From assembly GCA_964023275.1 (NCBI GenBank), contig OZ029928.1:1240001-1304000 (forward strand): a stretch of DNA of 64,000 nucleotides. Reading direction: 5' to 3'. Source of the stretch: Norana najaformis. Lineage: Eukaryota > Annelida > Clitellata > Crassiclitellata > Hormogastridae. A model generated the notes under the pieces. It was given only the letters and a program-made list of their open reading frames with translations. It was not told the origin of the DNA and made no database searches. The translations under genes and the position numbers were made by a program. This document shows, piece after piece, positions 8,926 through 57,309 of this stretch; position 1 is the first letter of the stretch, and each line of letters opens with the position of its first letter.

Positions 8926-9034
8926 TACTGTTCTGTATTGTATCTAAATGGATAAAGTAATAATAGTTTTATAAAACAGTAACTTAAACTGTCTCGCACA
9001 AAGTCTGTAATATTGTAAATGCTCAACCGTTCCG

Positions 9035-19152: not shown

Positions 19153-19380
19153 CTAAGTGTTCTTCAGAGGCGCATATTGTGGATCAGTTTCCTCAGCCAA
19201 AAACTGAACGGGTGGTAGGGAAGTTGATTGAGACGAAAGATTTATTTCTCCATAAAGGGGAGCATTCGGATTAGGAGCAGGTATTTGATGAGGTGCTTTG
19301 ATTGGTGGCAAAGGAACAGCTGCATTAAGGACAAAGTCATCGTTGTCTGGATTACGTAGTACGGAATAAGCACTGCCTTC
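19153..19380 (-). CDS. Gene A: terminal cytoplasmic tail exon (ITIM-like)
   Basis: Last exon, phase 0 at the start (acceptor ccttttgtag, first codon GAA) and stop at 19153-19155; 75 residues plus stop. It starts EGSAYSVLRN, where SAYSVL fits the ITIM pattern [SIVL]xYxx[LIV]. Further tyrosines are PLYGEI and PQYAPL near the C-terminus, and VPLPPIKAP is a proline-rich stretch. This is a signalling tail for the cytosolic side. Phase 0 is met by the upstream exon 20127-20367 and also directly by the membrane exon 29941-30038, so it can close more than one isoform. In mammals such motifs recruit SH2 phosphatases; here that is inference. Confidence 0.75.
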   Translation of the reverse strand, partial: EGSAYSVLRNPDNDDFVLNAAVPLPPIKAPHQIPAPNPNAPLYGEINLSSQSTSLPPVQFLAEETDPQYAPLKNT

Positions 19381-20126: not shown

Positions 20127-20367
20127 CTGATCATCCTTTCTTATTTTCTTTTTATTGACTGGCGTGTAATTGGGTATTACTGACACGTCTTTCTGCTTCG
20201 TTTCTTTGTTTTCATGTGGGTGGGTTTTTGATGGGGGGAAGGTCGTAGTGTTGCACTCTTTGTGCGGCAATGGGTCTCTTGTGGCTTCCAAGGGTCGTAA
20301 GTGGTCTTCGGTTGCCCCTCGTCCGTGACTTCTGGCCGCGTTTTCGTCTCTTTTGTCGCATATTTGG
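20127..20367 (-). CDS. Gene A: cytoplasmic tail exon
   Basis: A 241-nt exon entering at phase 2 (acceptor ctacgtttctgtag) and leaving at phase 0 (GATGATCAG/GTAAAT). It reads QICDKRDENAARSHGRGATE onward, is rich in charged residues and Pro, and ends KKKIRKDDQ. PNYTPV provides one tyrosine motif. An alternative acceptor 21 bases upstream (tatctcag before 20388) opens a phase-1 frame starting GNYVSVAKY that runs to a stop at 20177-20179. That frame cannot join the last exon, so the phase-2 acceptor is preferred; the other could be a shorter alternative terminus. Phase 2 is supplied by the microexons at 21020 and perhaps 29749. Confidence 0.6.
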
Positions 20368-21019
20368 CTACAGAAACGTAGTTACCATCTGAGATATAGT
20401 AAAAACATGATATAGAGCTCGAGTGTATATGGTGGACATAGGGAGGAACTCATATTGAACGAATGATGGTTCGGATGTTACGCACAGTTTAATAGTGCGA
20501 TCTATGTCGATTTAACGTGACGGACCAAGGATGCTCATACTGTCGTCGCTGAGGAGATCAGACCAGTTACGTGAGCTGCCTGTAATACCGAGTATACCTA
20601 GTTTCACTATCAAAGCTCAAAGATGGAGATATTGATGTAAATGTAATCGTATTTAGTCATAATATAGCATAAGAGCCATGCAATGATTTCTGCTGTGAGT
20701 TGTTTTCAGTAAACTGCGAAAAACAAAATCTCTGAAAATATTGTACTATTGGAAAAAAGGTTGTTGACGATTTTATAATTTCCAAAACAAAATATCCGAG
20801 GTAAAGCACTAGAAGTTAAACGGTTATTGCAAATGTATTCAACGAAAAAGTTAATACAACTTAGACCGACAATTATAAGTGTTTGATTGGCAAAATAAAT
20901 AATTAATGAACATTATTTTTTGTTGTTGAATATGCAGCCAAAGGAGGACTTAGTTTTGTAAGCCGAAAGTAGGTTTATGCCAACCTTTCTTGGAAAGTTG
21001 CATGATATAGGATTCTTAC
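20368..21019. other. Gene A intron
   Basis: Apart from the alternative tail start noted for 20388, nothing is recognised. Confidence 0.4.
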
Positions 21020-22643: not shown

Positions 22644-23874
22644 TGTAGCGGACTTGCGGACTTGGCTGTGTCTGACCTCCTCCCGCCTGCAGACATAGCG
22701 GAGGCGGCCGTGTCTGATCTCCTCCCGCCTGCAGACTTGGCTGTGTCTGACCTCCTCCCGCCTGCAGACATAGCGGAGGCGGCCGTGTCTGATCTCCTCC
22801 CGCCTGCAGACTTGGCTGTCTGACCTCCTCCCGCCTGCAGACATAGCGGAGGCGGCCGTGTCTGACCTCCTCCCGCCGGCAGACATAGCGGAGGCGGCCG
22901 TGTCTGACCTCCTCCCGCCTGCAGACATAGCGGAGGCGGCCGTGTCTGATCTCCTCCCGCCTGCAGACTTGGCTGTGTCTGACCTCCTCCCGCCTGCAGA
23001 CATAGCGGAGGCGGCCGTGTCTGATCTCCTCCCGCCTGCAGACTTGGCTGTCTGACCTCCTCCCGCCTGCAGACATAGCGGAGGCGGCCGTGTCTGACCT
23101 CCTCCCGCCGGCAGACATAGCGGAGGCGGCCGTGTCTGATATCCTCCCGCCTGCAGACTTGGCTGTGTCTGACCTCCTCCCGCCTGCAGACATAGCGGAG
23201 GCGGCCGTGTCTGACCTCCTCCCGCCGGCAGACATAGCGGAGGCGGCCGTGTCTGATCTCCTCCCGCCGGCAGACTTGGCTGTGTCTGACCTCCTCCCGC
23301 ACCCAGACATAGCGCAGACTTGGCCGTGTCTGAGCCCTCCCGCCGGCAGACATAGCGTGCGGGCTCGTGTGTCTGAGCTCCTCCCGCACGCAGACTTGGC
23401 CGTGTCTGAGCCCCTCCCGCCGGCAGACATAGCGTGCGGACTCGTGTGTCTGAGCTCCTCCCGCACGCAGACATAGCGCCGACTTGGCTGTGTCTGAGCC
23501 CCTCTCGCCGGCAGACATAGCGGTGAACCTGTGTCTGAGCCCCTCCCGCACAAAGACATGGGGCGGTCTATATAAAGGGATGACGTGGTATGACGTGATG
23601 CATGGCGAGCTGATGACGATGGTGAGCTGGTGAGATGATGACGTAAATGAGCTAATGTTTTAGTGTAAGACTAGTTGCTAAATGTATTATCCTCGTTAAG
23701 TTGTGAGAAATAAAGTGCGATTGACGATCGGTTGACTTCATGTTCAGCCTCTTGGGGACCTCAAGAGCCTTACCTAGCGGGCTAGCAGTAGATAGGCGCT
23801 GATAGGGAGCCTTCGGCTAGAGTAGCAGTGAACCAGCGCCTTGACAGGGGATTCGGCACCCCCGGTTTGTCACA
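22644..23874 (+). mobile_element. Probable solo LTR
   Basis: A TG...CA-bounded segment (starts TGTAGCGG, ends TTTGTCACA) flanked by a possible 4-bp target duplication ATAA (22640-22643 and 23875-23878). It contains a TATA box (TCTATATAAAG at about 23567-23577) and an AATAAA signal near 23708, the order expected of an LTR. The first 0.9 kb is a GC-rich minisatellite. No internal coding region accompanies it, so it reads as a solo LTR relic. Family not assigned. Confidence 0.45.
22655..23545 (+). repeat. GC-rich minisatellite of 33- and 42-bp units
   Basis: Tandem units built from GTGTCTGACCTCCTCCCGCC plus GCAGACATAGCGGAGGCGGC (42 bp) or GCAGACTTGGCT (33 bp), with a few shortened or diverged units toward 23300-23540. 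Because most unit lengths are multiples of three, long frames stay open on both strands (280-375 codons on minus; VSDLLPPADIAEAA repeats on plus). These are by-products of the repeat, not genes. Confidence 0.9.
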
Positions 23875-24510: not shown

Positions 24511-24669
24511 CTTGGGAGATTGACGCAGGCATAGTTGAGGTAGACAAATTGTCCGCCTTATTAGCAGAGAATTTGAGGCTGGATCTAACTAACAGGATTG
24601 GAAAAACAATCAAACCAATTGTAATGGACATAAGCCCAAAAAGAAAAACCCAGACACTGCATCCTCCAC
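24511..24669 (-). CDS. Gene A: transmembrane exon E
   Basis: A 159-nt exon, phase 1-1: acceptor tttttacttttcgcag, donor CAAG/GTAATC. It reads GGGCSVWVFLFGLMSIT, then IGLIVFPILLVRSS, then a polar segment ending PASISQ. One hydrophobic span of about 24 residues ends in Arg, typical of a single-pass segment with the cytoplasm on the C-terminal side. IVFPIL is shared with exon B (VFFPILITV), so the membrane exons appear to be duplicates. It joins the 19-nt microexon in frame. Confidence 0.75.
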
Positions 24670-24733
24670 CTGCGAAAAGTAAAAACAACAAATGTGGCTG
24701 AAGAAAATGGTAAGCTTAAAACATGACCTTTGC

Positions 24734-24905
24734 ACAATTGTAATTGTAATTGTAATTTGAGATTTATAAAGCGCATCTTAGAGGATAAACTTAACAGAGG
24801 TGCTTCCGACCCGAAAAAGTAAAATCACTGTTGAACAGTACAGTCTTCAGGCGCCTGCGTAACACTGAGAGGGGGAGAGAAAGGAGCTCAAGTCGCAATT
24901 CAGGA
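24734..24905 (-). mobile_element. 5'-truncated CR1/L2-like LINE end
   Basis: The tail repeat CAATTGTAATTG type and TTTATAAAGCGC match the other copies. The minus frame reads ELRLELLSLPLSVLRRRLKT, the same ORF end as the 59739 copy. Only about 170 bp remains. Confidence 0.75.
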
Positions 24906-24939
24906 AATAAAAAAATATGCAGCACTGACATACAGTAGA

Positions 24940-25085
24940 GGTGGGACTCGGTAGCCAGTTGATTAGATCGCTCGGCTTGTAAGACAGAGAGGACGGGTCT
25001 GAGCCTCCCCGTCACTCACAATCGCTCAGCGTCATCGATTGATACTCAGTCGGTAGATATCATATTGGCGCATAATAAATAAATG
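24940..25085 (+). mobile_element. tRNA-derived SINE-like element
   Basis: The head has tRNA-like A- and B-box candidates (GTAGCCAGTTGATTAG and GGGTCTGAGCC). The second half (CACAATCGCTCAGCG, CATCGATTGAT, then an AATAAATAAAT tail) is shared with 39345-39575, 44830-44995 and 59280-59505. Confidence 0.5.
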
Positions 25086-25453
25086 CAGAAATAAAAGTAG
25101 ACATAAAAGACCATTCTGGAATATTCCAAGCAACTGTGCATTCGAATATGAAAGTTTTTCGGTTTTCTAGGTTATGTTAAGATTGAAGTGATTAGAAGTA
25201 ATTAAAATGCCTTAATTTAATTTAACCTGAGCATTGTAATTTAAGCAGAACATATTTTCACATAGAGTTTCTGATCTTCACGCAGATAATTATGGAGTTT
25301 GGCAGAAAATCAGAACGATTTCTGTGACAATGGCTCCTACATGTAGTGCCACATTTCAATCCCAGATTAATCACACGCGCTATTTCACTGCAATGCTGCC
25401 AGATACCTCTAATATTAAGAACTTACAGTCGAAATGAAAAATGATGTTCTTAC
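25086..25453. other. Gene A intron
   Basis: Nothing recognised. Confidence 0.4.
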
Positions 25454-25636
25454 CACAGGATTCGTTGAGGCATGGCAACATCAGCTTTAACCAAGAGAAC
25501 GAATAATTCAGCATCTTCTTGTGTTCATGTTTGCCATTTGGGTCTCTTTCGTTGTAGTAAATCAGGAACACGGACATTGCAATTAGGTTGAGTAGCACCC
25601 AACAACAGGGCACAACGACAGCAGGAACTATCTTGT
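25454..25636 (-). CDS. Gene A: transmembrane exon D
   Basis: A 183-nt exon, phase 1-1: acceptor atttcgttggcag, donor TGTG/GTAAGA. It reads KIVPAVVVPCCWVLLNLIAM, continues SVFLIYYNERDP, then a basic His/Lys segment and SFSWLKLMLPCLNESC. The end (WLKLMLPC) parallels exon A (WLDYMLPCVKK), showing a common origin. It forms one membrane span followed by a juxtamembrane segment. Two tiny Ser/Thr-rich exons lie upstream as a possible stalk. Confidence 0.75.
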
Positions 25637-26732
25637 CTGCCAACGAAATAAACGGGATGCACCTTTTAAATTCTTATACACGTTGTATTGCAATAGACAT
25701 AGATAGACAATGTCTTTCTAATGTCGACATGATGCCTTATGACATTTGCTTTATGTCTACTTATATGCGCAAAATATGAGAAATATGGGCGAAATTGTAG
25801 TTTAGTTGCTGACACAAGCAGCTTGAATAAACTGCAAGACGAATATCTAACACGTAATTCCAGTATAAAAGCAATAGTTATAGTTACATTTAGTGACAAG
25901 AGGAAACGAAAAAAGTGTAAAGCTTCAGCAAACTAATGCCATTAATATCCTCCAGGTTTTCATTAACAGATACTTTTGAGATAATATTATGGCTCTTTTA
26001 TACTATTCTGTATTTAATTTCGAACTCCCATAATCAAACCTAGTATTCTTCATTACTAGATCATCTGTCTTAACATGGCTTAAGGTCGACTCTCAGAGAC
26101 ACAAAAGTCGGTTATAGGATTACACGAACCTCTAAGTATTACATGAAGTTTCGTTTAAAACTTACGTCCTAATATGTGAAAATTCAAGGATAAAATATGG
26201 ATGCAATTTTCAAGTTCGCTTAAGTAGTCCGTTTAATGCCTAATTGAAACTACTATTAACTAATTCCAATATTAATTGAAAATCTCACTTTCAATTTAAC
26301 ACAAGGCTTATAGTATTTGCAAACTTGCAAACACAATGCCTTATGACATTTGCTTTATGTCTATTTTGTCTATTTTTTCTTATTAGATATGTACTAAATA
26401 TGCAGTAGACATCGTCATATACATTAACAACTAAAAAAGACGCGTCAAAGGCTGCTTTAATGGTTTTATTAAAACTATCACACAAGCAAGCACATAATTA
26501 CACATTGACTACTGACTACAGGTTAAGTAATTTTAAGCCAAACCTCGAAGCTTCTAATATTACTTGTATAGAAATTTATTGGACCTAAAGGACATTTAAC
26601 TGTTAGGTAAACCTGAATGTGCATGATTTCAGACGCTTTCAAACTTTGAATTGAAACCATTTGATCATGGTTCTTAACTGATTTGTTGTCTAATTTTTTG
26701 TGGGTGAAAATAATAATACTTATAGCACTTAC
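25637..26732. other. Gene A intron with a 30-bp direct repeat
   Basis: A direct repeat starting ATGCCTTATGACATTTGC occurs near 25732 and 26335. Nothing else recognised. Confidence 0.45.
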
Positions 26733-26768
26733 CAGGAGTTGGTACTGAAGATACTTTTGATGTGTTTG
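26733..26768 (-). CDS. Gene A: 36-nt Ser/Thr-rich exon
   Basis: Acceptor gtttttttgctag and donor CCTG/GTAAGT enclose NTSKVSSVPTP in phase 1-1. It equals the gene C exon at 4223 in length and phase. A likely extracellular stalk piece placed before membrane exon D. Confidence 0.55.
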
Positions 26769-27197
26769 CTAGCAAAAAAACCATCAGAACATTTTAAATG
26801 TTTTATAGTGTTATTGCTGATGCATAATGATTATGTATTTCACCACCAACTGTAAATTTAGTTCATAATTACCTTCCGTAATGTATAAAAGACCATTATC
26901 ATGTTGCTATATGAACATTTACTATATGTCCATACTATACATATTAGGTCTTCCTTATATGTATGTTTAAAAGATGTTGACTGAACTTTTCCAGATTTTT
27001 CCAGAGAACTTTTCCAATTTGGACCTTGATTTTACTTTGATTAATATTTATGGTCATATACAAGTCGTTTGATAAGATTTGCTTAAGTTTTATAAAAGAT
27101 TCAAGAAATCTCCTTAAAATAATACATAATCAAAAGAAATTTATGCCTTAAGTCAAAAACATTAACAATCCAATATTAATGTAAAATTTCCACTTAC

Positions 27198-27224
27198 AGT
27201 TGGTTGACGAGGACATTGTACTCG
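27198..27224 (-). CDS. Gene A: 27-nt Ser/Thr-rich exon
   Basis: A strong acceptor (ttgcttctttctgcag) and a GTAAGTGG donor enclose STMSSSTN in phase 1-1. It is Ser/Thr-rich like the next exon, so probably stalk sequence. Content alone cannot prove so short an exon. Confidence 0.5.
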
Positions 27225-29748
27225 CTGCAGAAAGAAGCAACACTTTGAGTCATATTATTATTTTGTTAGGTGTATACAGTAACAGCACATTTGTGGGCTG
27301 ATAGCTTTGGTTCACGTACTACTCATGCTATGTGTCGAGACATGATGCCACTGGAATAATAGAAATTATTGCTTGACAAGCACACGTTTATGAGCAGTTT
27401 AAAATCTATCTTCTAACTTAGAGGATGGTTACAAGCTTTAAAACCGAATATGCATGTGGAATGATTAAGTGCCTTTACATGTGGGTGAAGAAATAGTTTT
27501 CAAACTAAACGTAAGTATTGACTGAATTAAATTAAATTAAACTAAGAATGCATGACAACGATGCGCTGAAATAGTTTTGTTTAATAAATTTCCATTCATA
27601 ATGATCATTAATTGACAATAACTATAACAGTCATTGCATTAATTTTTCTCCTAATAACAAAAGCCACTCGAATATTCATTAACTGTATCAGTATTGGTTA
27701 ATTAAGCTGAAGCAGATGACTTTAAAAATACATCTTTGAGAATGAATATTTACATAAAGAGTTCTTAAGTATAATTTAAACTATGCTTCATTCTGCTGTA
27801 ATTGATATTGTGTAAGGGGAATGGATCTTGGTCTATGCTGAACTGTATGAATAATTCTTATGTAAAACTAGGAGATATGCATGTTCAATATTTAGAACAT
27901 GTGATTCTATGCTTCGAATATATTAAATGTTATTGAATGCTATGACCATTAGTAGATTGTATTCTATAATTTTATATAAAGAACAGTAATAATGATTTTA
28001 GCAAGAGAGAATTCGGTTACTGTATACTGTCTTTTCTGCTATCTGCCCTGTTCTTTGTCGTTAACTAAACGCAATCTACCGAAACTTTATTACGCACACC
28101 TGATTTTGCCATAATATTGCAGCACACACTGACTGAAGAAAGGACTTCAGCTTTCCACTTGTATCAGTTATTCAGCTAGCATGACGTCAAAGCAAATCAT
28201 TTGTAAGTTGCATGTACATCTTGCCGCCATCGTACAATATGAGTACGTACTATTTTCAAGTTGCAAATATCATTGTGCACATGTTACAGTCTTGTCAAAA
28301 TTTTCCTCAACGTTACATAAAATAAAGACGCTTTGGCATGTTTCGCAACATGTTCAAATTGTTACAATATAAAAAAGAATAAAATTGACTACAGCTAAGC
28401 AACAATGATCTGGCCATGCATTGCATAACCAGAACCCAGTTGCATCTTTGAAAGTTAAGAAGTTATTGTCATGTCACAGTTAAAAATTGCCTCAAATTAT
28501 TGCCATACGTTAGAATTTTAACACGATGCCTAGACTCAGTAAAATATTTGAATAAGAATCACAGAAATAGTTATTCTCCTAGGCAGGAACATGGTACGTT
28601 TGTCAGCTACATAATAATAGCTGGAACGGCTTATCCATTTCTTCCAATACGTTTTCGTCATAGTGCACAACTAAGCATAACACAGAAATTAAATTTGAAA
28701 ACCATATGCATTTAAAACTGAAATATGCTAAGGTGAGGCAATTTCTGCGTCTCATTTTTCTGGATCTCAGCTATTTAAGATAAATGGCTCATACAACAAT
28801 TTAAATTATATGTGAATATTGTTGAGAATGAAAAGAAACAAACCACAATTATTCATATTTTATTTTGCTGACGGAAAAGGTTTATTTGCTAGATAATAAT
28901 ATATCTTACAGATGAATTCAAACAAAATCAAATTTAATTTACCCATTCATAATATCAAGAATTATACAATTAAGAACTGATAGCTTATCATATGCAATTC
29001 TGAAATCTTCAAGCCTGAGAAAGTTGGCAGAAAACATGCTATGCCAGAAATTGTCAAGTTCACCAGTTATAGAAGAAATATTCTTGAGTTAATGGCAGGT
29101 AGGCTGCCAGTTGTTAGTGTCAGATGAGTATTTAACTGAAAACAAAAATTCCCTTACTATGCTGAGATTGTCTGCTTGATATCATATCTCTTTTTTTTAT
29201 TTAATAACGTTGCCATGTTAGTCTTCATATATTCTGTTAAACAATTAGAACTTTTCACTGCACCGATTAATTTGCAAAAACAAATATTAACACTTTATCA
29301 CACAATTATAAAAATACATCACACTATTACGGCTTAAAGCATACATAATAAACATCATTCTGAGTCTTACTGCTTAAGTGCCATCTCTAGGAAAAATGGA
29401 TTATCCCGTTCTTTATTGAATAAATGTCACTTGCTGCACAATATTTTGTTCATGAGCAGATTAGCCATTACTTTCAATCACTTATTTGTAGAAATCATTG
29501 TGATTAAAAATAATTCAAAACTTTTTAACAAATATTTTGAGTCAAACTTCTTCAAATGAGATTTTCACTTTCACGTTGCATTAAAAATAAGCTTACACAA
29601 TGCCTTCTATATTAAAGCATTGGTAAAGTTGCGGCAGAAATAATATAATAAGTTGTTATAATCTAACGTGTCTATGTTATGCAGCCTTTTGTAGCACTGA
29701 ACGCCAGTATTGTACATTTGGACAGCGTATCAGGGAGTCACTACATAC
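27225..29748. other. Gene A intron
   Basis: AT-rich, no exon, repeat or RNA recognised across 2.5 kb. Confidence 0.4.
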
Positions 29749-29756
29749 CGGAAGGT
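29749..29756 (-). CDS. Gene A: candidate 8-nt microexon (phase 0 to 2)
   Basis: The polypyrimidine acceptor tgctgttgtttttcag and the donor GTATGT enclose 8 nt (ACCTTCCG). Read from phase 0 it supplies T-F-R when joined to the phase-2 exon at 20367. That is exactly the conversion needed after membrane exon C, which ends in phase 0. Supported by splice signals and frame only. Confidence 0.3.
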
Positions 29757-29940
29757 CTGAAAAACAACAGCAATTACTGTCAGCTGCTCCAAAAAATGAA
29801 AACTGATTTTTATGCGATGATATTCTAAAGACACGCAGTCAAGTATAGTCTAATTCTCACTCTAAATGATTCAACCTTGTCATTAAAGTTTGAAATACTT
29901 CAAAATCGTTCAATTGGATCGAATTAAGCTTGCTGCTTAC

Positions 29941-30038
29941 CATTTGTTCACAGTGAACGAAGTAGACAAGGACAAAAGTGAGTGGAAACATGAAGACAAC
30001 GACTCCAAACCACATCAGGATGATCAGTGGAATCAAAT
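29941..30038 (-). CDS. Gene A: transmembrane exon C (phase 1 to 0)
   Basis: A 98-nt exon: acceptor ttttggaatgttggtag, donor AAATG/GTAAGC. It reads LIPLIILMWFGVVVFMFPLT, then FVLVYFVHCEQM, a single hydrophobic span. Unlike the other four membrane exons it leaves in phase 0, so it can join the terminal tail at 19380 directly, or via the 8-nt candidate to 20367. GVVVFMFP resembles GIVFFP of exon B. Confidence 0.65.
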
Positions 30039-30265
30039 CTACCAACATTCCAAAAGTTGAACGGAATGTGTTCATCACAGTCATATTACCTTAATCCAAT
30101 ACTAGCTGGCATTCATACGCCTGAGTGCGTTGCTTTACCTTTTTATAATGATAGCGAATATAATTACATTAAATGACCACATAATTAACATCAGGGGCAT
30201 ATTTTCAGAATAAAACGTGTCCTACTTTACAGAGATTACAATTTTCAACAAAAGATGTTACTTAC

Positions 30266-30313
30266 ATGCAGGTTTGCCTTTTTCTGCGCCGTTATTCACA
30301 TAATGATCATCTC
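30266..30313 (-). CDS. Gene A: 48-nt exon with YVNN motif
   Basis: Acceptor taatgtttagtag and donor GCAT/GTAAGT enclose DDHYVNNGAEKGKPA in phase 1-1. YVNN fits the YxN pattern that binds Grb2-type SH2 domains when phosphorylated, so a cytoplasmic role just after membrane exon B is likely. Short, but the splice sites and phase are clean. Confidence 0.55.
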
Positions 30314-30726
30314 CTACTAAACATTAAACATGAAGTAACATTGGTAAATCGATAGTTAAACCTTCTAGAAACTTTTGGTAAAAAAGGTAAATTTTCTCCT
30401 TACAGCAACAACATTTAATTCTTTAAATTTCGTTAGCAGAAAGGAACTGGAATCAACGCAGAGCGACCGTTTATGGCGCAATGATATATCTATGTATCAT
30501 AAATAAAAATCTTATCATCATAAAACGGTTTGAAGCAGACGTTAAAATATCATTTTCAAATGTAGCTTGATACAGAACCATAATGTTGCAACTTCAAAGC
30601 AGGCAGGTAAAGAAACACAGTCGTCTGCTATAATTTTTCGTTACTAGACGTTCATGCACCGCGTCTGACAGTTAGGCTAGAGCTAAATATTAGCACATAG
30701 ATTTCTCAGTGGTTGCGATGTATTAC

Positions 30727-30843
30727 CTTTGCTCTTTGGGCTGAAGTATGCGACTGTGATGAGAATTGGAAAAAAAACGATTCCACATGTCACCGACACA
30801 ACAGTGAGCAAAACGACGAAGACGAATATCTTCCACTTAGGCG
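30727..30843 (-). CDS. Gene A: transmembrane exon B
   Basis: A 117-nt exon, phase 1-1: acceptor actttttcttttcag, donor AAAG/GTAATA. It reads PKWKIFVFVVLLTVVSVTCG, then IVFFPILITVAYFSPKSKG. The start (PKWKI) matches exon A (PEWKI). A long hydrophobic span ends in Lys residues, as for a type I stop-transfer segment. Confidence 0.75.
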
Positions 30844-31512
30844 CTGAAAAGAAAAAGTAATTTGACACAACAAAAAGCAAGTTTAGATATCAAATTTCTT
30901 CTTCATGTTGTTGAATTAATAGCAATTAAAACAGAAGCAAACAACCATACCCATTTCTTAAGATTTCTAAAGCTCAAAAGTAGATTATACCAAACACCCG
31001 TTATGGTTTAAAAGCAGTGAAGCGTGTCATGCAAAAACATATCCAGCATCACGAAACACAGTAAAATTCGTATGTGCCTTGCCAAGGCGACACAATAGAT
31101 TAAGTATTTCCATTGCAACCAACTTAATAAATTTAATGCTAAAACTTGTAACTTTATTCTTACTACTTTACATATTAAAATGATGGCATTTATTGATTCG
31201 TGTCTTTATATGTATTTTTTGCGGCACAGCACCAGTTCATTTTCGAATGGTTAAAACGTTCTTTTCAGCTTGAAATAAAATTAGGCGTTTCTGGAAAGAT
31301 TGCTTGTAAAAACTGTGCAAATCTGCATCTGAAACTGATCTATTTCCAAAGAAAATAGCCGAAACTTTAAATTCTTTGCTAAAAAAAGCCTGATTGATTT
31401 TTTACATATATTAGCCAAAATCTGACAAATACACCCGCATCATAGAGGATTTTCCAGCCTTTATCCGTTTCTGAAATATTTTAAAACTTCTCTTCATACG
31501 TCTTTTTCTCAC
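30844..31512. other. Gene A intron
   Basis: AT-rich, nothing recognised. Confidence 0.4.
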
Positions 31513-31785
31513 CAGTGTCTTTGTCAATCACAGTTGTTTTAATCTCAGATGCATTCGCCTTGAAACTCTGCGATCTGGGAGTTTGGGTTAGCGATGTATT
31601 TTTGATTGGTTCCAGTTTTCCTGGTTTTGGTGGCAAAGGTCTTCCGGCTGGAACTGTGGACGATTGTATGCCATTGTTGTAGGGTGGGATTTTAGTTGCC
31701 GGGTCAAGATTTACAGTAGTTTTTTCTCCTTTTCTGCGCTTCTTTTTTGATTTTTCTGGAGAGCAGGTATTCTCTGAGCTCTGAA
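31513..31785 (-). CDS. Gene A: basic and proline-rich cytoplasmic exon
   Basis: A 273-nt exon, phase 1-1: acceptor accatttgctcttcag, donor ACTG/GTGAGA. It starts VQSSENTCSPEKSKKKRRKG, a strongly basic cluster (nuclear-import-like or membrane-binding). It continues with NLDPATKIPPYNNG, then GRPLPPKPGK, where RPLPPKP fits the class I SH3 ligand pattern +xxPxxP. The end is Ser/Thr-rich (TSLTQTPRSQSFKA). Cytoplasmic by composition. It carries no stop and needs a downstream exon. Confidence 0.7.
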
Positions 31786-32542
31786 CTGAAGAGCAAATGG
31801 TTCATTTAGAATGAACTCAAACGGTTAATAGATGCTTAATACATAAATCAGATGTTCCAGCAATAATGCACAACAATATCGCAACATGTTATAACATATC
31901 ATAATCTAGCAAAAACCTTAGTACAAGGGTTAGAAGCAGATCTTGAAAGAACAACGATTACAATTTCGGACTACTTAGGAAAGTGTAATCATGTTATTCT
32001 TAAACATACCTAAAATGGATGAGAGATGTATGCAACATGAAAAGAAATGCAAAAAGCTATAGATTTTGGAATCGTTGTTATACGCTATTTCCTTCTTTAC
32101 GTCACAACCGAGCTAAATAACAGCAGGTCAAATTAACAAAACCAATCAGGGCAAACTAGCTTGAAAAGCATTAACAAGCGATTATTCCTATAAAAAACCA
32201 AGCACCCTTCACCTTTGCATACAATTACAAAGTTATGAAAACTAAAACACGTATCATGAAACACATCTTCTTTTTGATAGGCGTATACTACACTGCTGAC
32301 GTTCAACATAATGCTCCTAAGAGAATTTATTATTACGACATACTGTATTTAAAAATTAAAAAAACAAACTGATACAGTCAGATAACAACCCGCCACATAA
32401 ATATGTCAAGTTTCAGTCATTTCAAACTCTTTACTAGAATTCCTCAGTTTAAGCTTATTGATATTTACATTATCATTGGTTGTTTCTCAATAAAGTAGAT
32501 TTTATGCTTCAAAGTGATGACGGTAGACTGTGGTAGTCTTAC
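31786..32542. other. Gene A intron
   Basis: AT-rich, nothing recognised. Confidence 0.4.
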
Positions 32543-32581
32543 CTGGTGTCGTCTCAGCATTTTCTGCCGCTCTTTGCTGTT
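32543..32581 (-). CDS. Gene A: 39-nt linker exon
   Basis: Acceptor gatttctttttaatag and donor CCAG/GTAAGA enclose QQRAAENAETTP in phase 1-1. It lies between membrane exon A and the proline-rich exon and is polar, probably cytoplasmic. Confidence 0.55.
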
Positions 32582-32828
32582 CTATTAAAAAGAAATCAAT
32601 TTTTGTATTGCACAGCAACTGACTCCACTAAAAACATCAAAATGAGTCACAATGTTCTTATCTAACATAATCTAATTTAACCCTATCTAAAACTTCCATA
32701 ATACCGTTATTATGATGCACAATGTCAATGGTCGCTTCAAGTGAAATTGTAATTAAAATCACAATCAGTTGGAAAAGCCAAAAAGAATTCCGAAAGAGCA
32801 TAATCCTACGATGTTATGAAATTCTTAC

Positions 32829-33002
32829 CTTTGGATTTCTTTACGCATGGTAGCATATAGTCGAGCCAAGGGAATCTGCTGAGCATCTTGACCCTGAATG
32901 GAGTGGCAAGTGCAGCATAACAGACGATAAAGATGGTTGTCACAATCAGACACTCGCCGACCCATGGAATGATGACACTCACTACTATTTTCCATTCGGG
33001 AC
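32829..33002 (-). CDS. Gene A: transmembrane exon A
   Basis: A 174-nt exon, phase 1-1: acceptor gatgtgattag, donor AAAG/GTAAGA. It reads PEWKIVVSVIIPWVGECLIV, then TTIFIVCYAAL, then a basic juxtamembrane part with RFPWLDYMLPCVKKSK. It is the first membrane exon after the Ig exons and joins the end of Ig4 in phase. The start resembles exon B and the end resembles exon D, tying the membrane exons into one duplicated family. It shows no clear similarity to the gene B membrane exon. Confidence 0.75.
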
Positions 33003-38916: not shown

Positions 38917-39204
38917 AACAATCCGTCACTCTTATGCTTTTGGATGCAGTCGTGTTTGTCATGAGATTAATTTGGTTAGAAGGTCGACATGTGTAGCTGC
39001 CATTCGCTGATGCATTGAAAGAAGAGGTACTGCTTAACACATTTTCGTAGTCATCTATCCATGTGATATTTGGCAAAGGATAGGCATTGGTCACTTCACA
39101 GATCAGGTTAACATGAGAACCATTCACACAACTACAAGAATTTGTTCCATTGTCACAATTTGCGTCAGCGGAATATATCCGGATGTTATCCGTCTTTGCA
39201 GGGA
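38917..39204 (-). CDS. Gene A: Ig4 exon
   Basis: A 288-nt exon, phase 1-1: acceptor tttgcttgattttcag, donor GATTGTT/GTACGT. The start is Cys-rich (ADANCDNGTNSCSCVNGS). Then comes an Ig core: HVNLICEVTNAYPLPNITW and NGSYTCRPSNQI, ending IRVTDC at the donor. It has several N-glycosylation sequons. The extra N-terminal cysteines are a special feature of this membrane-proximal domain. It aligns over its full length with 58857-59144 of gene B but is clearly more diverged than the other Ig exons. Confidence 0.85.
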
Positions 39205-39976: not shown

Positions 39977-40248
39977 CACATTGACGAGGTTGCTGATGCC
40001 AGTAGTATAAGCTGCAGACGATGAATTGACTTTGTTAGAAACAGTGCATTGGTAAGTTCTGTTGTCTTCTGCCAACGCCAACACGTTGCCAGTGGCCACT
40101 ACTTTCCTTGTAGTTACATTTGTCCAAGTGTGACTGGGTGATGGGTTGGCAGAGGAATTACAGGTTAGTTCAATGAACGAACAGACGATATCGCTATTTG
40201 CTGTCACGTTCACTGTTCTGCGAGAAATGTTAGGAGTCGTTGGTCCGT
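39977..40248 (-). CDS. Gene A: Ig3 exon with 1-nt deletion
   Basis: Acceptor ttcaattgctttag; core IELTCNSSANPSPSHTW and NRTYQCTVSNKV. The exon is 272 nt against 273 in gene B. One C is missing near the 3' end (GCATCAGC-AACC), so the frame reads SNLVNV instead of SQPRQC and the exon leaves in phase 0 at a canonical GTAAGT donor. Joined to Ig4 this soon meets a stop (after QILVVV). Skipping this exon would restore phase, because Ig2 ends and Ig4 begins in phase 1. Either gene A makes a three-Ig protein, or it is damaged here, or the base is an assembly error. Confidence 0.75.
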
Positions 40249-41679: not shown

Positions 41680-42027
41680 AGTAGACCCCAGTGATTGGAT
41701 AAGTTGCTCCTATGTAGACGTTCGATGGTGCGTTGAGAGCTGAATCGGGTTTATTTGCAGGTGGCAGGAATTGTGCTGTGCAGTCGTACGACGGAATTCC
41801 AGCTCTTGTTGCAAAAACGGTGACTGAAGAAGTAACGGAGACGTTTGTTTTTGCAGTAACAGCATTTGGAATGTTTATTCCAGATGTCGTCCAATTGAGA
41901 ATCGGCGCAATTGGAACGGATATCAATGTTTCTGAGGCTGTTCTGTATTCCACAGCGCAAGTCATTGTCAGCTGATCGCCTTCTACCACCTCTGAACCAT
42001 TATTCACCGTCGGTGTACCAGAGGAAC
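41680..42027 (-). CDS. Gene A: Ig2 exon
   Basis: A 348-nt exon, phase 1-1: acceptor gtgatcttttag, donor TACT/GTGAGT. Ig core: VEGDQLTMTCAVEY, ILNWTTSG and RAGIPSYDCTAQF, with a long loop between the first Cys and Trp. It ends GVYC at the donor. It differs from the gene B copy at about 7 of 116 residues and has the same length and splice sites. Several sequons (NVSVTSS). Extracellular, second domain from the N-terminus as far as seen. Confidence 0.85.
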
Positions 42028-42690
42028 CTAAAAGATCACAAAACAACGATATTGTTATGCATCTGCGGTACATTTTCAATTTATAAAGAAATGTGACAGA
42101 AACATAAAGACTGTCTGGTTCTGTATTAGGCGTGTGAAAGCAGGTCAGCTAGTAATAGTTTTCTCCGCAAAAATATTGATTTTAAAGGCAATTTTCAAGT
42201 TCTGTACTTAGCTGCTGTGTTGTGATATTCCAGTTATTGTCGGCCTATTGAGCAACAAGTAATTGCCTTAATCCTGATGGTTAAAGCAAAACCGGAGAAA
42301 AAACATATTTATGTATGAGTAAGTAAGTAGTTACTGTAAATATATTTATGTATGTGTAAGTTAGTAGTTACTGTATTAGCATCTGACAATTGCACATGTA
42401 TTATATTGCAAAGATCAGTTACATATACGTTATACTAGATTATTACATTTACAAATATAACAGATAGACATGCACAACTAAATATAACTGAAGGTGACAT
42501 CGATTCAAAATGCTACTCTTCAACAGTTTAGATTTAACAATAGTTATCATGAAACGGTGTCAATGAAAGGGTGCGTACTGACAGACTGAAGAAATCTGGT
42601 TAGATTTTAATTAGCTCAAACCTAAGTGATAGGGTTAGGGTCAGGGTTAAGTAAGATTAAGCAAGATTAAGTTGGCTGATTTTCAACACT

Positions 42691-42752
42691 TAGCTAGCTC
42701 ATGAGGAGACTGCCTGCATAGCTGTGCAGGCAATTCCTCATGGGCTAGCTAG
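42691..42752. repeat. 62-nt imperfect hairpin
   Basis: TAGCTAGCTCATGAGGA and TGCCTGCA pair with TGTGCAGGCA and CCTCATGGGCTAGCTA around a short loop; arms of about 28 nt with four mismatches. Pre-miRNA-sized, but could be a MITE relic. Confidence 0.6.
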
Positions 42753-44829
42753 CATGGCCTATGAACTGGCCTTAGCTGATAAATGTTCCAGCTTTGGCTA
42801 CAAGCATAAAAACTTAGGTTGTCTGTTGCTGAACAAATACCATTGCTTTGGATGTGGAGAAATTCTAAGTTTTGCATTAGTCAAAAAGGTATTAAACACT
42901 ATGCGAGCAAAACTACGACGAAAGTGTCGGATGTGTGTGTGTGCTGCGATAGTATTATTGTCTTTGTAAGAATGGGTGAATTTGCTAGACAACATGTAAT
43001 AATCAAATCTAGAGTTTTGAATAATTACTGAATTAATTCTTAAAATTTAGAATGAAGCAGAATAAAAATTAATGTTAAGTTATGTTGGTAAAGTCAAATG
43101 TTAAAATGCATGATTTGGTAACTCACCAATGATATTATATTTAAAGTGATTTGCCACCTCTATGTGGAACCCAGAGTTTTTGAGGCATCCCAAGCTGGAT
43201 TACGGTGTTATTCGCAGCCCCAAAATTATTGTAGATTACTACATAACATTATAATGTTTCTGCAAGAGGGCGGATTCTGGAACCACTCCAACCATGACCC
43301 CACCTATGTTTAGAATTCTACACGAAGAACAGGTGTGCAATAACGGATACAAGACTACCACGCCGATCATGGCCTTCCCCAAACTCAGATGCAAGGCATG
43401 GTGTAAATTGGCCCGTGGATCCGCCTATGCCGCTTCATCGCGATCCATAATGATGCTCCTGCCGTAATAATGATGATGTTGATGACGGTGATGATGATGG
43501 TGATTGTGGCGGTGATGATGACGATCATAATGATATTGACATATTCAAGGTTGTGTTTTAAAGAGATTCCAATGTGCCATTCAACGATTGGTTTGAGACA
43601 ATATGCAACAAATTGACTGTGCTTGAGTATTATTCTTATGAAATGGTGCTGCTAATCCAATGGAGACAGAAACATCACGGTTAAGAACCTCTGAATGAAT
43701 AATAGACGAATAATGAGAGATTAACGTGCCAGGCATCAAACCTGAATCAGACTCAGTGGCTCTGGGAGGAAAATAGTAGACGGCGGAAAGATAGGCCTAA
43801 AGCTAACTAACCGATCATTTTACGAAATGAAAGGTTTTAGGGACTGCAGTTGGCCTAAATTAACAAACTGACCCAACCGTCATAAGAAAATACAAAACAA
43901 ATGCTGTCAGATTTTGGTCTTAAATCTTACCATCTATGCTTCTCTAAATTCTTTGGAGAAAAATCATTATGTTTAAAAAATTTGGGTTTCCTGCTGGAGT
44001 GTATTAAAGCAGTTGGGTACGGCAGTTGCTGAAATCGTGCAATCAATTATTGCTTTTGAACAATACCATAGCAATAACATTAATGATAACATTAAACATT
44101 TTATTGTTGAAGATTAATTAAACAATAACAATTACCCTACTTAAGACTGAATATTTTAACTTTTCAAATAGTCTTAACTACCCATATAATACACAAAAAA
44201 AGAATTCTTTGTGTCAGCGTAAAAGCTCGACTTTAATTCAGAGAGTTTCCCATTTCCACGAGGGTTAGCACAAGAGTACACACATGAGTAAGAAAAACAT
44301 ATTGTTGAGATTGTTTGCTCAAAGTGATAACAACGAGCGCTTCGCATCAAAATTAGCAGCGAGTTAGAATGCATATGCAAACTGTGCCGCCTCAGTCTTT
44401 GCAGCCATCGACCTTAACTAACGATAATTTCCGAAAGGCTCAAAACACCAACAAATAAGGTTTTCGGCCCGTTGACGAAATGTCTCACAAGGCGTTGCTG
44501 CCAGTACTGTCACGTGGCTGGTTCTGAAATTACTTAATAGCGGCAGAAGAATTCAGAGCGATAGCCTCTGTCGGCGACAGATAAATAGTTAATGTAGCTG
44601 TGCGCTTAAGTACTGGATGGTTCATAGATAAATGGGATAAGGAATGGTGCTCAATACACAGCTCTTCTAGGGAGTCATTTGATGAAAAAATGATGGCTTA
44701 AACTTTGCAAGCCTAGTATCTAAGTTACTGGGAAAGCTCGAGCCATACTGCCTGTTAGTTCTAAGTTTCTTTACACCTAGGCTTCATATTGGCATAATGG
44801 AAACACTATCGGTCAAATTTACCTCTACT

Positions 44830-44995
44830 CGATGTGGCAGGGTGGTTGATTGGTTGAGCACTCACCTTGTAACATGAAGAGTCTATCCTAAGATGATTAC
44901 TGTGTAAGGACCTTGAGCAGGTCATTCACACACATATGGTTACTGCTATGAACAGGTATCAATTGATTCGTCATCATTAAATATATAATATTTGT
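44830..44995 (+). mobile_element. SINE-like repeat
   Basis: GGCAGGGTGGTTGATTGGTT resembles a tRNA A-box region. ATTACTGTGTAAGGACCTTG and the ATCAATTGATTCGTCAT tail follow the order of the copies at 39345 and 24940. Confidence 0.45.
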
Positions 44996-47545: not shown

Positions 47546-47580
47546 AAAAATACTCTAAATTGTAAACGTTAATAACGTCT

Positions 47581-50109: not shown

Positions 50110-50421
50110 TTAAAACTGTTAGGACTGCATACTTTGGTGTCAAGGTCAAATCTTGACATGAGTAGATTCCACTTTCTTGTAGTGAAGGATTTAAGATGAT
50201 CAGATTGCACGTGTTACTTCCTTGTCCTTCACCACGGTACCTCGATAAGTAGTTTGACGAAACGCTACAAGATGATCCTAGTTCTATGAGAACAACGTCC
50301 TTCCCCTGCTGTCCAAATTTCCACCCAGGAACACTGTTATTACCAGAACAGTTCAGATACGTCTGGCTGCCGACTTTAGTTGCAGTGTTCTGAGGAGGTG
50401 AAGTTATCGCGCCTTTGACTT
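50110..50421 (-). CDS. Gene A: Ig1 exon (V-type)
   Basis: A 312-nt exon, phase 1-1: acceptor ttaattatatttgcag, donor TTTTAA/GTAAGT. It reads VKGAITSPPQNTATKVGSQT, then YLNCSGNNSVPGWKF (Cys, Trp) and LNPSLQESGIYSCQ (Tyr-x-Cys), with an additional Cys pair (GSSC ... SNTC) that may form a second disulfide. V-set-like. It differs from the gene B copy at only about four residues. Upstream homology with gene B stops about 27 bases before the exon, near a LINE inserted in the opposite orientation, so the signal-peptide exon could not be traced. Confidence 0.85.
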
Positions 50422-51137: not shown

Positions 51138-53264
51138 CTATTTGAATAGTCCGTCACTATTTAAGCATACCGATGTAAACAATTTAAAACATCGATTTAC
51201 AACTGGCCTTAACCAAGTTGTAGACAAAAGTTTAGTAATGTAATATTCTATATCGAAGTTATCGGCTTATTACCTTTGCCTTAACAATTATTACTTTTTA
51301 AAAATTGTATCACCTGCGTTTTTGCTCAGACAAAAAAGTGCTACATATGGCACAAAGTATTTGATTAGGCGAAGATAAGTTAGAACAAACCTAAATATAT
51401 TCTTACATATTTTGTAGAAAAATTAGTTATTATGCCTTAAAGTTGTAGGTTGAAAAATACGAGTATTAAACTATTGAAACAATCTTTAATACCCACCGGA
51501 CAAACAAAGAAAAAACAAAGCGGATACAAGTTCTCTTGAATTGTTCCAAGAAGTTACCATTTTTATTAGGCCTATGTTCTGCATACGGAATTAACCAAAA
51601 TTCAGTTTTTTTCAGGCAATATAAGTAATTTTTGTATGACGTCTAACTTTGTTGATGAATCCTAATCTCAAATTGCATCCTTTATAACATTCCGAATAAT
51701 CCACATAAGCGAACAGTTCTTCAGATTGCAGTTTCAAAGATTTAGCATTCACAGATAAGAGATATCGTCGACGTGATGCTCCCTATTACTTCGAAAACAG
51801 CGTCGTTGTTGACGAATGCTTATAATATCATAATCTGCCTCAGGTACAACAGCGCCATTTATCAACAGCCTTCACTCCGCCTTGCATTGACACCAGGCTA
51901 ATTCATTCTGTCTAAAATAATGTGGCTCACCCTGTCGTTGGGAATCATCTCATAAGTGAAAGGAATTTGACATTGATAACATGAATATTTTTATTAGATT
52001 GCCACTGCACTAATATGGAGAAATTGTAGTCTCCTACTGTGCTCTCGTTCAAGAAATTGCATTGTTTTTGTTTAGATTCTCTGATATTATTATGGAAGCT
52101 TTTGCGACATTTCACAATCAGTGGAAAATATTCGTAAGAGTGCGCCACGGGCATTTTCAATAAAACACACTTTCAGTCGAATTATTGGCTAAAGGTACTA
52201 AGCAGCTAAAAAAAAAAAAAAGCAGCTACTAATAAATTTTAAGCACTCAGGTCAGTTCAAAACGTTATAGTAATTGATATGATTATAAATAATAAACGCA
52301 TGACAACGTTTGATACAATATTGCTATTTGGTGTTTTTATCACAAAAAGAGAATTGTACGTTAGATCAACCACCTCACTGAGATCAGGCATTTTGCAAAA
52401 AATAACATGGCTGAAAATTACTCTCGTGTTTCTTGGACAAAGTGTGTTTTATTGAATGAACTGCTTTTATTTAAAATTAAATATCGATCTATGTTTAAAT
52501 TCATTAGTCTGAGTTATAAAATTGAAGCTACACAATATGTATAACATAGCAGAACTCTGAATCTCACTGTTAAATAACTTAATGTAAGCAATTCTTAGAA
52601 CTTCTATAGCGCCATTATAAGAATGCACTAGGGATCAATCGATGGCATTTGAAAACAGAGTCGGAAACCAATCAATTTCTAGGGTCAATCCTATAAGACA
52701 GACAGTCTAAGAAGGATATGCACGAGAACGGAAAGACACAAATTACAGATAAGAGCAGACAGATTGGAAAAGTGGAATTACGTCCTGTATAAAATAGACA
52801 GCAACATATAATCACAACACTAGCAAATTTTTATATCTTTCATCATCGTCGTGTCCTTCATGAGTTCGCAGACTAGTTTAGCACTCCTTGACCTCCCGCT
52901 AAGGAAGCTGCAAAAACCGACACTAGTTGTCGCCAGCAAATAGAGATATTCAATCCATAAAACTGCCATACAATTTGTTACTCCCACAGAAACTCTCATA
53001 GGACATCACGCATGAGCTAAAGACTTGGGACCAGACAATAGAACAAATTTCGCAGTATTCAGTAACCGTAATTGAACGTTAAGCAATAGTTAGATGGCAT
53101 ACGAGATTCCATAATTATAGTGACAAATATTGCACACTGCTGTTCGTCAAGTTGCAGAGCAGCACGCAACCACTTGCATTTATGCATCTAATAAATTTAA
53201 CATACATTCACTAGCAACGTTCCGGAACATGAAAACGTACAAGTTAATTGACACTTAATTAGAG
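51138..53264. other. Region between gene A Ig1 and gene B 3' flank
   Basis: The promoter and signal-peptide exon of gene A would be expected here, but I could not identify a hydrophobic start exon. The last 150 bases belong to the block homologous to 11.5 kb. Confidence 0.4.
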
Positions 53265-56714: not shown

Positions 56715-56917
56715 TCAACCAGTGTTCGTGTCAGTTTTTTCTATATTAATATACTGTGTATCTGGTGTCAATCGCTCGTATTGGTTTGGTTGTTCTCTGT
56801 ATGGTAATGGATTGAGTTCTTGGTAGGCGGATGGTGGAGATGTTTCCATTGGATGATTTACCGTCTCTGGTTTCCAACTATTTTGTCCACGAGTCTTTGA
56901 AGTTTTTGTGTTTTGGT
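56715..56917 (-). CDS. Gene B: cytoplasmic tail exon (ITIM/ITSM-like)
   Basis: Last exon, entering in phase 1 (acceptor catgttcgcttctttag), 66 codons plus TGA. It reads SAYQELNPLPYREQ, NQYERL, DTQYINIEKTD. SAYQEL fits ITIM ([SIVL]xYxxL), TQYINI fits ITSM (TxYxx[IV]), and YQEL to YERL are 11 residues apart, within ITAM spacing limits. Four tyrosines lie in the last 35 residues. This is a cytoplasmic signalling tail for an otherwise intact receptor. Similar in plan to the gene C tail and unlike the longer gene A tail. Confidence 0.8.
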
Positions 56918-57156: not shown

Positions 57157-57309
57157 CTCCATTGGTAGGTATCTTTCGTAGAATGATGAATACGATCAAC
57201 GCTCCGATGACCAACAGTGCAACTCCGAACAACACACCGAGGATAATGGCTGCAGTCTTAGCTGCCTGATATTGCAATGACGTGTCTCCTTGAACAAAAT
57301 ACAACTGCG
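57157..57309 (-). CDS. Gene B: transmembrane exon
   Basis: A 153-nt exon, phase 1-1: acceptor cccttgttctgtgcaag, donor GGAG/GTAGCT. After a short extracellular part (QLYFVQGDTSLQYQ) comes AAKTAAIILGVLFGVALLVI, then GALIVFIILRKIP: one Gly/Ala/Val-rich span with a basic stop-transfer end. It matches the gene C exon at 6952 and not the five membrane exons of gene A. A CTAAACTAATCTAACCTAAC tandem array (57395-57465) precedes it in the intron. Confidence 0.75.

Follow-up and report, generated by a model that had tools for sequence, protein, structure and literature searches.

The stretch of DNA analysed here (the window) comprises 64,000 nucleotides of contig OZ029928.1 from the annelid Norana najaformis, and its minus strand carries candidate exons of two neighbouring receptor genes (Table 1). 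In gene 1, the upstream paralogue, four Ig-like exons precede a single transmembrane (TM) exon and a terminal exon; in gene 2 they precede five TM exon candidates, interspersed with smaller exons. The two genes have a common ectodomain, with DNA identity of 88.5–98.6% over five main matches and a dN/dS of ~0.3 for Ig3 and Ig4.

Table 1 Candidate features of the two receptor genes, all on the minus strand (window coordinates)
Feature	Position	Properties
Gene 1 ectodomain, four Ig-like exons, paralogues of gene 2	58858..63305	
Gene 1 single TM exon	57157..57288	phase 1-1; synonymous codon test 7/500
Gene 1 terminal exon	56715..56917	SAYQEL (ITIM form), YERL, YINI
Gene 2 candidate signal-peptide first exon	51497..51584	ATG 51584 or 51560; phase 1 donor, score 5.5
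Gene 2 Ig1, V-type	50110..50421	phase 1-1
Gene 2 domain 2, weakly Ig-like	41680..42027	phase 1-1; C-W-YxC read by eye
Gene 2 Ig3, Ig_2/I-set-like	39977..40248	leaves phase 0
Gene 2 Ig4, C2/I-set-like	38917..39204	phase-1 donor weak (-0.8)
TM1 (type A)	32829..33002	174 nt, phase 1-1; acceptor weak (-1.0), donor strong (6.4)
39-nt exon	32543..32581	readable phase 1-1
273-nt basic loop exon	31513..31785	RPLPPKPGK SH3-type ligand
TM2 (type B)	30727..30843	117 nt, phase 1-1
48-nt exon	30266..30313	YVNN, phase 1-1
TM3 (type C)	29941..30038	98 nt, phase 1 in, phase 0 out; acceptor weak (-1.1)
Candidate terminal exon, coding start	29730..29756	phase 0, TFRYVVTP then stop; AATAAA at 29417
27-nt Ser/Thr-rich stalk-like exon	27198..27224	readable phase 1-1
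36-nt Ser/Thr/Pro stalk-like exon	26733..26768	readable phase 1-1
TM4 (type A')	25454..25636	phase 1-1, TM1 homologue
TM5 (type B')	24511..24669	phase 1-1, TM2 homologue
Possible terminal exon	20177..20388	phase 1 acceptor, core tyrosine motif NYVSV
Possible terminal exon	19153..19380	phase 0 acceptor, SAYSVL (ITIM form) + YGEI + YAPL

In the PDB, the Ig1 domain of gene 2 weakly matched V domains of antibody light chains and a portion of CD226. Domain 2 bears a weak likeness to Ig in both genes (gene 1: Ig_2, E 0.016; gene 2: Ig_3, E 0.14), and AlphaFold models of domains 1 and 2 (mean pLDDT 34.2 and 47.8, respectively) were too poor for use. The codon-content test did not support the candidate signal-peptide exon, as 278 of 300 null segments scored as high. 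Ahead of its donor, gene 2 Ig3 is one base shorter than its gene 1 counterpart; the donor is thereby in phase 0 and meets a phase 1 Ig4, so that the Ig3–Ig4 frame is broken. This difference may reflect a mistake in the assembly; alternatively, the Ig3 exon could be skipped, since Ig2 leaves in phase 1 and Ig4 enters in phase 1, and the two would then be frame-compatible.

Five hydrophobic minus-strand exons had been predicted from the sequence as a tandem array within one receptor gene, and all five were found at the predicted sites. When both strands of the 64 kb were scanned for TM exons (splice score > 5, KD > 2.0), four candidates were recovered, all on the minus strand, in phase 1-1 and inside 8.5 kb; TM3, with a splice score of 3.9, lies under the cut-off. 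Forty Markov control sequences contained a mean of 0.775 candidates in any phase (maximum 4) and 0.075 in phase 1-1 (maximum 1). The supposed relatedness of all five exons did not survive a shuffle test of the ten possible pairs. Two pairs stood out, TM1 with TM4 (z 8.8, 0/4000 shuffles) and TM2 with TM5 (z 5.5, 1/4000 shuffles), and a five-fold tandem duplication was rejected on this ground. The words PEWKI/PKWKI shared by TM1 and TM2 belong to a pair that does not rise above background (z 1.2, 527/4000 shuffles), and TM3 has no relative among the other four exons, its best partner being TM4 (386/4000 shuffles). The homologous pairs run in the same order, and over 75 aligned codons the copies match at 39, 52 and 28 first, second and third codon positions, a pattern of selection on the protein. 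TM4 and TM5 resemble an older, incomplete duplicate of TM1 and TM2. A homologue of TM3 and its terminal exon is absent elsewhere in the window, and the region after TM5 holds weak hydrophobic stretches only, with zero exon candidates for a third TM at a splice score > 1; the second block is therefore incomplete.

The original prediction further held that four of the TM exons and the five smaller exons among them are phase 1-1, such that any subset can be joined in frame. The phases were confirmed for TM1, TM2, TM4 and TM5, and together with the smaller exons nine of the ten can be read in this way, although phase 1-1 is just one possible reading of three small exons: the 39-nt exon has two open frames, and the 27-nt and 36-nt exons have three each. 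Joining of any subset fails at TM3, which leaves in phase 0 and hence cannot be joined in frame to later phase-1 exons. The best acceptor within 29.9–27.3 kb (score 4.9, 99.1 percentile; next best 4.8) is phase-matched to the TM3 donor, and joining TM3 at this site adds eight codons before an in-phase stop. The exit phase of TM3 and this stop indicate that TM1, TM2 and TM3 most likely make up one membrane end of three passes, whose long basic loop contains an SH3 ligand. Joined computationally in the order TM1, 39-nt exon, 273-nt exon, TM2, 48-nt exon, TM3 and terminal exon, the frame is open up to the TFRYVVTP stop and encodes three spans, the first loop being basic. In this computed product, three successive TM exons, with other exons intervening, supply one span each ahead of a short tail lacking a known signalling motif; the charges flanking TM2 and TM3 leave their orientation unfixed.

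The codon-content test depends in part on amino-acid composition and marks hydrophobic exons down, so a synonymous-only codon test was run, trained on nine stretches of exon taken from both genes, which are near-identical. It favoured the 273-nt exon, TM2 and TM4 (each 0/500), with lesser support for TM3 (37/500) and none for TM1 (136/500) or TM5 (375/500). The 39-, 48-, 27- and 36-nt exons gave 204/500, 91/500, 237/500 and 143/500, respectively, and were likewise unsupported; in the codon-content test the 39-nt exon gave 5/300 and the 36-nt exon 2/300. At 20 kb, the possible terminal exon gave 261/500 and an overlapping frame (20367–20067), likewise open, gave 16/500. The test was unsupportive of the 19-kb exon (441/500).

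The absence of an Ig exon among the TM exons, as predicted, was borne out by searches between and around them. With hits accepted up to E 1, Pfam detected no family in the three minus-strand frames of 24–39 kb, and BLASTP with the gene 2 Ig peptides of the window itself returned no match in the interval from 38.9 to 24 kb. As a positive control, the frame holding known Ig exons scored Ig_3 at 5.4e-9. Weak domains escape whole-frame scans of this kind: neither gene gave a clear detection of its domain 2, and Ig1 and Ig4 of gene 1 reached only 0.063 and 0.045. Hidden Ig or sushi exons were accordingly rejected for three minus-strand frames, with the proviso that weak ones could escape. The same proviso applies to the sushi domain, which was absent at E up to 1 from three minus-strand frames of 9–64 kb; scanning ORFs singly found none either, and no FNIII domain was found. 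The whole-frame Pfam scans covered 9–64 kb of the minus strand and, on the plus strand, 1–15 kb and one frame of 24–39 kb, which yielded a reverse transcriptase alone. Scans with Rfam and for tRNAs (the latter with a tool using the bacterial code) were empty, and of 41 stretches in viral contigs that fit a pattern for V-domain relatives, 0 were confirmed.

We estimate at about one in two the probability that the locus encodes two neighbouring paralogous immune-type receptors with a common ectodomain, gene 1 being one-pass with an ITIM and gene 2 three-pass. The Ig ectodomain of gene 2 would continue, by a putative Ig4–TM1 junction, into three single-span exons. TM1 would cross out-to-in and lead into a cytoplasmic basic loop of ~140 residues with the SH3 ligand; TM2 would return in-to-out, with a short outer loop next, and TM3 would cross out-to-in before a short tail without an ITIM. 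If expressed, such a receptor would signal via its loop, or via a partner with one pass, such as gene 1. The stalk exons downstream, with TM4 and TM5, might then serve as an alternative 3' module or be relics.

A combinatorial receptor, as originally envisaged, would splice one ectodomain to different membrane anchors. Nine exons are indeed frame-compatible on paper, and a choice among a few 3' ends (the run-on stop after the 273-nt exon, the TM3 end and the downstream block) is possible, but free mixing of five interchangeable anchors is not supported. We regard as unlikely a single gene whose combinatorial 3' ends are one-pass with the SH3 ligand, three-pass, or TM4/TM5 with the 20-kb tail. 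Besides the nine phase 1-1 readings, this proposal draws on the stop ending at 31481 when the 273-nt exon is read past its donor, followed by AATAAA at 31194, and on tails in matching phase (20388, phase 1; 19380, phase 0, fitting TM3); a precedent is shrimp Dscam, in which the TM exon comes in two alternative versions and stops alternate too (PMC6851185). However, AATAAA is common in DNA as AT-rich as this (33 AATAAA/ATTAAA in 15.5 kb of the minus strand), TM3 is out of frame with the later phase-1 exons, and an even number of spans would leave the tyrosine tail extracellular. Moreover, the extent of Botryllus fester splicing seen by PCR was, according to a review, not borne out by bulk sequencing (PMC12065747). 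It appears quite improbable that one ectodomain chooses among one-pass SH3-ligand, three-pass short-tail, three-pass ITIM (TM3 with the 19-kb exon) and second-anchor modules; if it did, a single recognition surface could give a silent, an adaptor-coupled or an inhibitory output in turn, while the neighbouring gene would keep a near-identical V domain, perhaps via gene conversion.

Remnants of duplicated genes had been offered as an alternative, and this idea is retained as a rival. That the TM4–TM5 block, perhaps all of gene 2, is decaying seems doubtful to us. Consistent with decay are the one-base break in gene 2 Ig3, the missing third TM, the failure to detect an ectodomain domain between TM3 and TM4, and the lack of codon support for TM5 and for both tails (20388 and 19380). 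Nevertheless, TM4 and TM5 still have open frames and splice sites and are conserved at the protein level, Ig3 and Ig4 have the dN/dS given above, and the Ig3 break may have either of the two innocent explanations already mentioned. The other suggested alternative, a multi-pass protein, is favoured in three-pass form for TM1–TM3, whereas the phase of TM3 forbids joining all five exons in frame and excludes a five-pass protein. A single protein using all the TM exons, or four of them, is in our judgement very improbable: TM1-TM2-TM4-TM5 with the 20-kb tail does read open, but its tail would be extracellular if the Ig end is, and positive C-flanks on TM4 and TM5 favour one orientation for both. 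One three-pass end formed by TM1–TM3, with TM4–TM5 as a duplicate block, is the simpler reading.

Hydractinia Alr and the vertebrate KIR/LILR paired receptors are one-pass and are not known to have a three-span module. They share with the present genes the clustering of Ig receptors and the ITIM or related tails, and differ in the putative three-span module here. Arthropod Dscam is an Ig receptor whose TM exons alternate; in the present genes two pairs of TM exons are homologous, and their alternation would be hypothetical. Unlike Dscam, the present genes have four Ig-like domains, FNIII was not found and ectodomain exon arrays are absent.

The two-gene layout resembles the fester/FcoR allorecognition pairs of the colonial sea squirt Botryllus schlosseri; in the papers found, Botryllus allorecognition is where a three-pass Ig receptor is reported together with a one-pass ITIM receptor. 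Fester has 11 exons, of which exons 8–10 carry one TM each (PMC3549757). None of its PCR splice variants breaks the frame, and a signalling motif is not known from it; FcoR genes adjoin fester genes and are one-pass, an ITIM being present in some (PMC12065747). As described there for the fester family (fester/FF1, uncle fester/FF3), gene 2 would combine an Ig ectodomain with three TM spans in separate exons and a short tail after the third TM without a known signalling motif. A further likeness is the partly duplicated membrane half, as in uncle fester. Fester also has often-skipped exons directly before its TM exons and splice variants that keep the frame, which might have a counterpart here in the nine of ten exons readable as phase 1-1. 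In contrast to fester, gene 2 has four Ig-like domains, no sushi domain found and a long basic SH3-ligand loop, and nine of its exons can mix in frame, whereas, according to the review, randomly mixed fester exons are not all in frame (PMC12065747). The likeness is drawn from published descriptions, and two published fester primers gave 0 matches in the window with up to 3 mismatches allowed.

A single TM and a long tail of the ITIM/hemITAM/core-tyrosine kind, as in FcoR, characterise gene 1. As in the FcoR descriptions, it has a V domain, further domains, one TM and a tail with an ITIM and core YxxI/L motifs, and it adjoins a putative three-span gene. In the same review, the ectodomain of FF is laid out differently from that of FcoR (PMC12065747). 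Unlike FcoR, with its V Ig, sushi and two C2 Ig domains, the present ectodomain has V and C2/I-like domains and a domain 2 that is weakly Ig-like, not sushi, and in a further departure from what is described for FcoR it is near-identical to that of the neighbouring gene. A near-identical ectodomain on both kinds of receptor would show how such pairs can originate, by duplication of one ectodomain onto different membrane ends, and such a locus would allow a direct test of whether both partners bind one and the same ligand and answer it with opposite or complementary signals.

Both Ig genes of the window lie on its minus strand, and the array of transmembrane (TM) exons is part of the second, gene 2. 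Splice sites were scored with generic metazoan tables, which are not specific to this species. At the predicted places we recovered all five hydrophobic exons, and among them the small or cytoplasmic exons of 39, 273, 48, 27 and 36 nt. The original prediction read four of the hydrophobic exons and the five small ones as phase 1-1, with any subset joinable in frame; a phase 1-1 reading is possible for TM1, TM2, TM4, TM5 and the five small exons, and TM3 is entered in phase 1 and left in phase 0. For three of the small exons phase 1-1 is one possible reading, since no frame of the 27- or 36-nt exon contains a stop and the 39-nt exon has two open frames. A hydrophobic-exon scan of both strands (score >5, KD >2.0) returned four exons, all belonging to the array (TM1, TM2, TM4 and TM5); 40 first-order Markov sequences yielded a mean of 0.775 (maximum 4) in any phase and 0.075 (maximum 1) in phase 1-1. 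TM3 and the gene 1 TM scored under the cut (3.9 and 4.8, respectively).

Positions of the genes, exons and other features in the window
Feature	Position	Strand	Remarks
Gene 1	about 63.3-56.7 kb	minus	
Gene 2	start near 51.6 kb	minus	
TM1	33002-32829	minus	
TM2	30843-30727	minus	
TM3	30038-29941	minus	
TM4	25636-25454	minus	
TM5	24669-24511	minus	
Downstream tail exon	20388		phase 1; NYVSV
Downstream tail exon	19380		phase 0; SAYSVL, of ITIM form
LINE-type reverse-transcriptase fragment	59757-60815		gene 1 Ig3-Ig4 intron
774-bp element	40588-41361		gene 2 Ig2-Ig3 intron
42-bp tandem repeat	22664-23523		GC-rich, about 22 copies
571-aa unbroken ORF	7228-8943	minus	
Solitary Ig3-like ORF	2348-2677	plus	E 1e-7 to gene 2 Ig3

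The five hydrophobic exons had been regarded as mutually related. Local alignment scored against 4000 composition-preserving shuffles indicates that this was a misreading, since TM1-TM4 (z 8.8, 0/4000 shuffles) and TM2-TM5 (z 5.5, 1/4000) alone are conspicuous among the ten pairs. None of the remaining eight stood out in this test: TM1-TM2, with the words PEWKI and PKWKI, reached z 1.2 (527/4000) and TM3-TM4 z 1.5 (386/4000), the other non-conspicuous pairs being lower. The gene 1 TM had its best partner in TM5 (z 2.3, 124/4000). BLASTP against 2805 window ORFs, with composition correction off, was consistent (E about 2e-5 and 0.002-0.003). Over 75 aligned codons, 39 matches fell at position 1, 52 at position 2 and 28 at position 3, the pattern that protein-sequence conservation would be expected to leave. 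The array therefore has the order A-B-C (TM1, TM2, TM3) followed by A'-B' (TM4, TM5). TM1 carries a glutamate within its membrane span (WVGEC), and the aligned TM4 has leucine/asparagine (WVLLN). Charged residues inside spans are frequent mediators of pairing with partner spans.

As predicted, no Ig exon was found among the TM exons: three minus-strand frames of 24-39 kb gave no Pfam family, and the four gene 2 Ig peptides no match in 38.9-24 kb, both at E up to 1. A positive-control frame with known Ig exons returned Ig_3 at 5.4e-9 across three stretches; whole-frame scans can overlook a single weak domain. The synonymous-codon test supported the 273-nt exon, TM2 and TM4 (0/500 null segments each) and the pool of TM1, TM2, TM4 and TM5 (2/500), and TM3 weakly (37/500). 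It did not support TM1 (136/500) or TM5 (375/500) singly, the 39-, 48-, 27- and 36-nt exons (204, 91, 237 and 143, each of 500), or the downstream tails (261/500 for the phase 1 exon, 441/500 for the 19-kb tail). Downstream of TM3 the top acceptor is 29756 (score 4.9, 99.1 percentile), followed by 29014 (4.8); the former is phase-matched to TM3 and gives TFRYVVTP and then a stop, with AATAAA at 29417. Reading through the donor of the 273-nt exon leads to a stop at 31481, with AATAAA at 31194; such hexamers are frequent here, and both signals therefore carry little weight. TM3 alone among the array exons has an exit phase fitting the ITIM-form tail exon; a phase 0 exit also occurs in the open frame 20367-20127 and in the shortened gene 2 Ig3.

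Against the PDB, the V domain (Ig1) weakly matched antibody light-chain V domains, CD7 and part of CD226 (best E 5e-5), and domain 4 weakly matched I-set and C2 proteins (best E 0.001); the Ig-likeness of domain 2 is weak. Between the genes, dS is 0.007, 0.058, 0.140 and 0.266 for Ig1 to Ig4; dN/dS is 0.48, 0.31 and 0.29 for Ig2, Ig3 and Ig4, and 2.2 for Ig1, where changes are too few to judge. Divergence rises steadily from Ig1 to Ig4 (63305-58858 versus 50419-38918). By sequence comparison, the V-domain end of both genes looks as if homogenised by gene conversion. DNA likeness ends about 90 bases past Ig4, indicating that the ectodomain is common to both genes and the membrane end is not; in gene 1 a single TM is followed by a final tail that contains SAYQEL, YERL and YINI. 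The gene 2 Ig3 exon has 1 base less than its gene 1 counterpart ahead of the donor and so exits in phase 0, whereas Ig4 is entered in phase 1; at the corresponding donor, gene 1 has GC in place of GT. This difference may reflect decay, an error or the skipping of Ig3. No signal-peptide exon of gene 1 was found in the window; it may perhaps lie beyond the edge.

We put at about 0.5 the probability that gene 2 has a three-pass end. The locus would be one of paired receptors and would also hold a second, partial copy. The Ig end would lie outside the cell and TM1 would cross inward; the loop of the 39- and 273-nt exons is most likely cytoplasmic, because it is basic and contains RPLPPKPGK; TM2 would then cross outward and TM3 inward again, before a short tail. 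The charge of the TM2 and TM3 flanks fixes the orientation of neither. To signal, such a receptor would need its own loop or a partner, for instance the adjoining one-pass ITIM receptor (gene 1), whose recognition part is almost identical. For the TM4-TM5 block, an alternative end and a relic are both conceivable.

By analogy, the locus would probably work like a fester/FcoR pair of Botryllus. One study gives fester 11 exons, of which 8-10 correspond to three TM domains (PMC3549757). According to a review, fester genes combine Ig, sushi and three TMs, uncle fester partially duplicates exons 6-11, and the neighbouring FcoR genes have V, sushi, two C2 and one TM, with ITIM, hemITAM or core tyrosine motif tails (PMC12065747). 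The window is like such pairs in its membrane ends and pairing and unlike them in that Pfam scans of three minus-strand frames of 9-64 kb found no sushi domain, for which reason we do not assign it to these families. The same review states that fester PCR splice variants were all in frame, which exons mixed at random were not, and that the extent of splicing by PCR was unmatched by bulk sequencing (PMC12065747), a mismatch that counsels caution over the combinatorial receptor originally proposed for gene 2. Alternative TM exons and alternative stops in one Ig receptor have been described for shrimp Dscam (PMC6851185). The present arrangement was absent among the literature matches listed, from a coverage mostly outside subscription papers.

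The window has the look of animal DNA; its GC content by 2-kb segment is 30-50%, it contains reverse-transcriptase ORFs, and it gave no Rfam family or tRNA match. The Ig3-like ORF is perhaps a piece of a further, oppositely oriented receptor gene; no Pfam match came from the plus-strand frames of 1-15 kb, which cover it. The 571-aa ORF is possibly of mobile-element origin; no Pfam family passed the cut-off for it, Retrotrans_gag having E 0.088. Several frames are open through the tandem repeat, and Pfam support for it was absent on the minus strand. The LINE-type fragment is missing from gene 2, and a script found no target-site duplication at it. The 774-bp element has inverted ends of GGACAATTACCCCC-type repeats and TATAAAA repeats on its flanks; in gene 1 the site is empty. 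Ig1 and Ig2 are separated by about 0.6 kb in gene 1 (62398-62990) and by about 8 kb in gene 2 (42061-50104).
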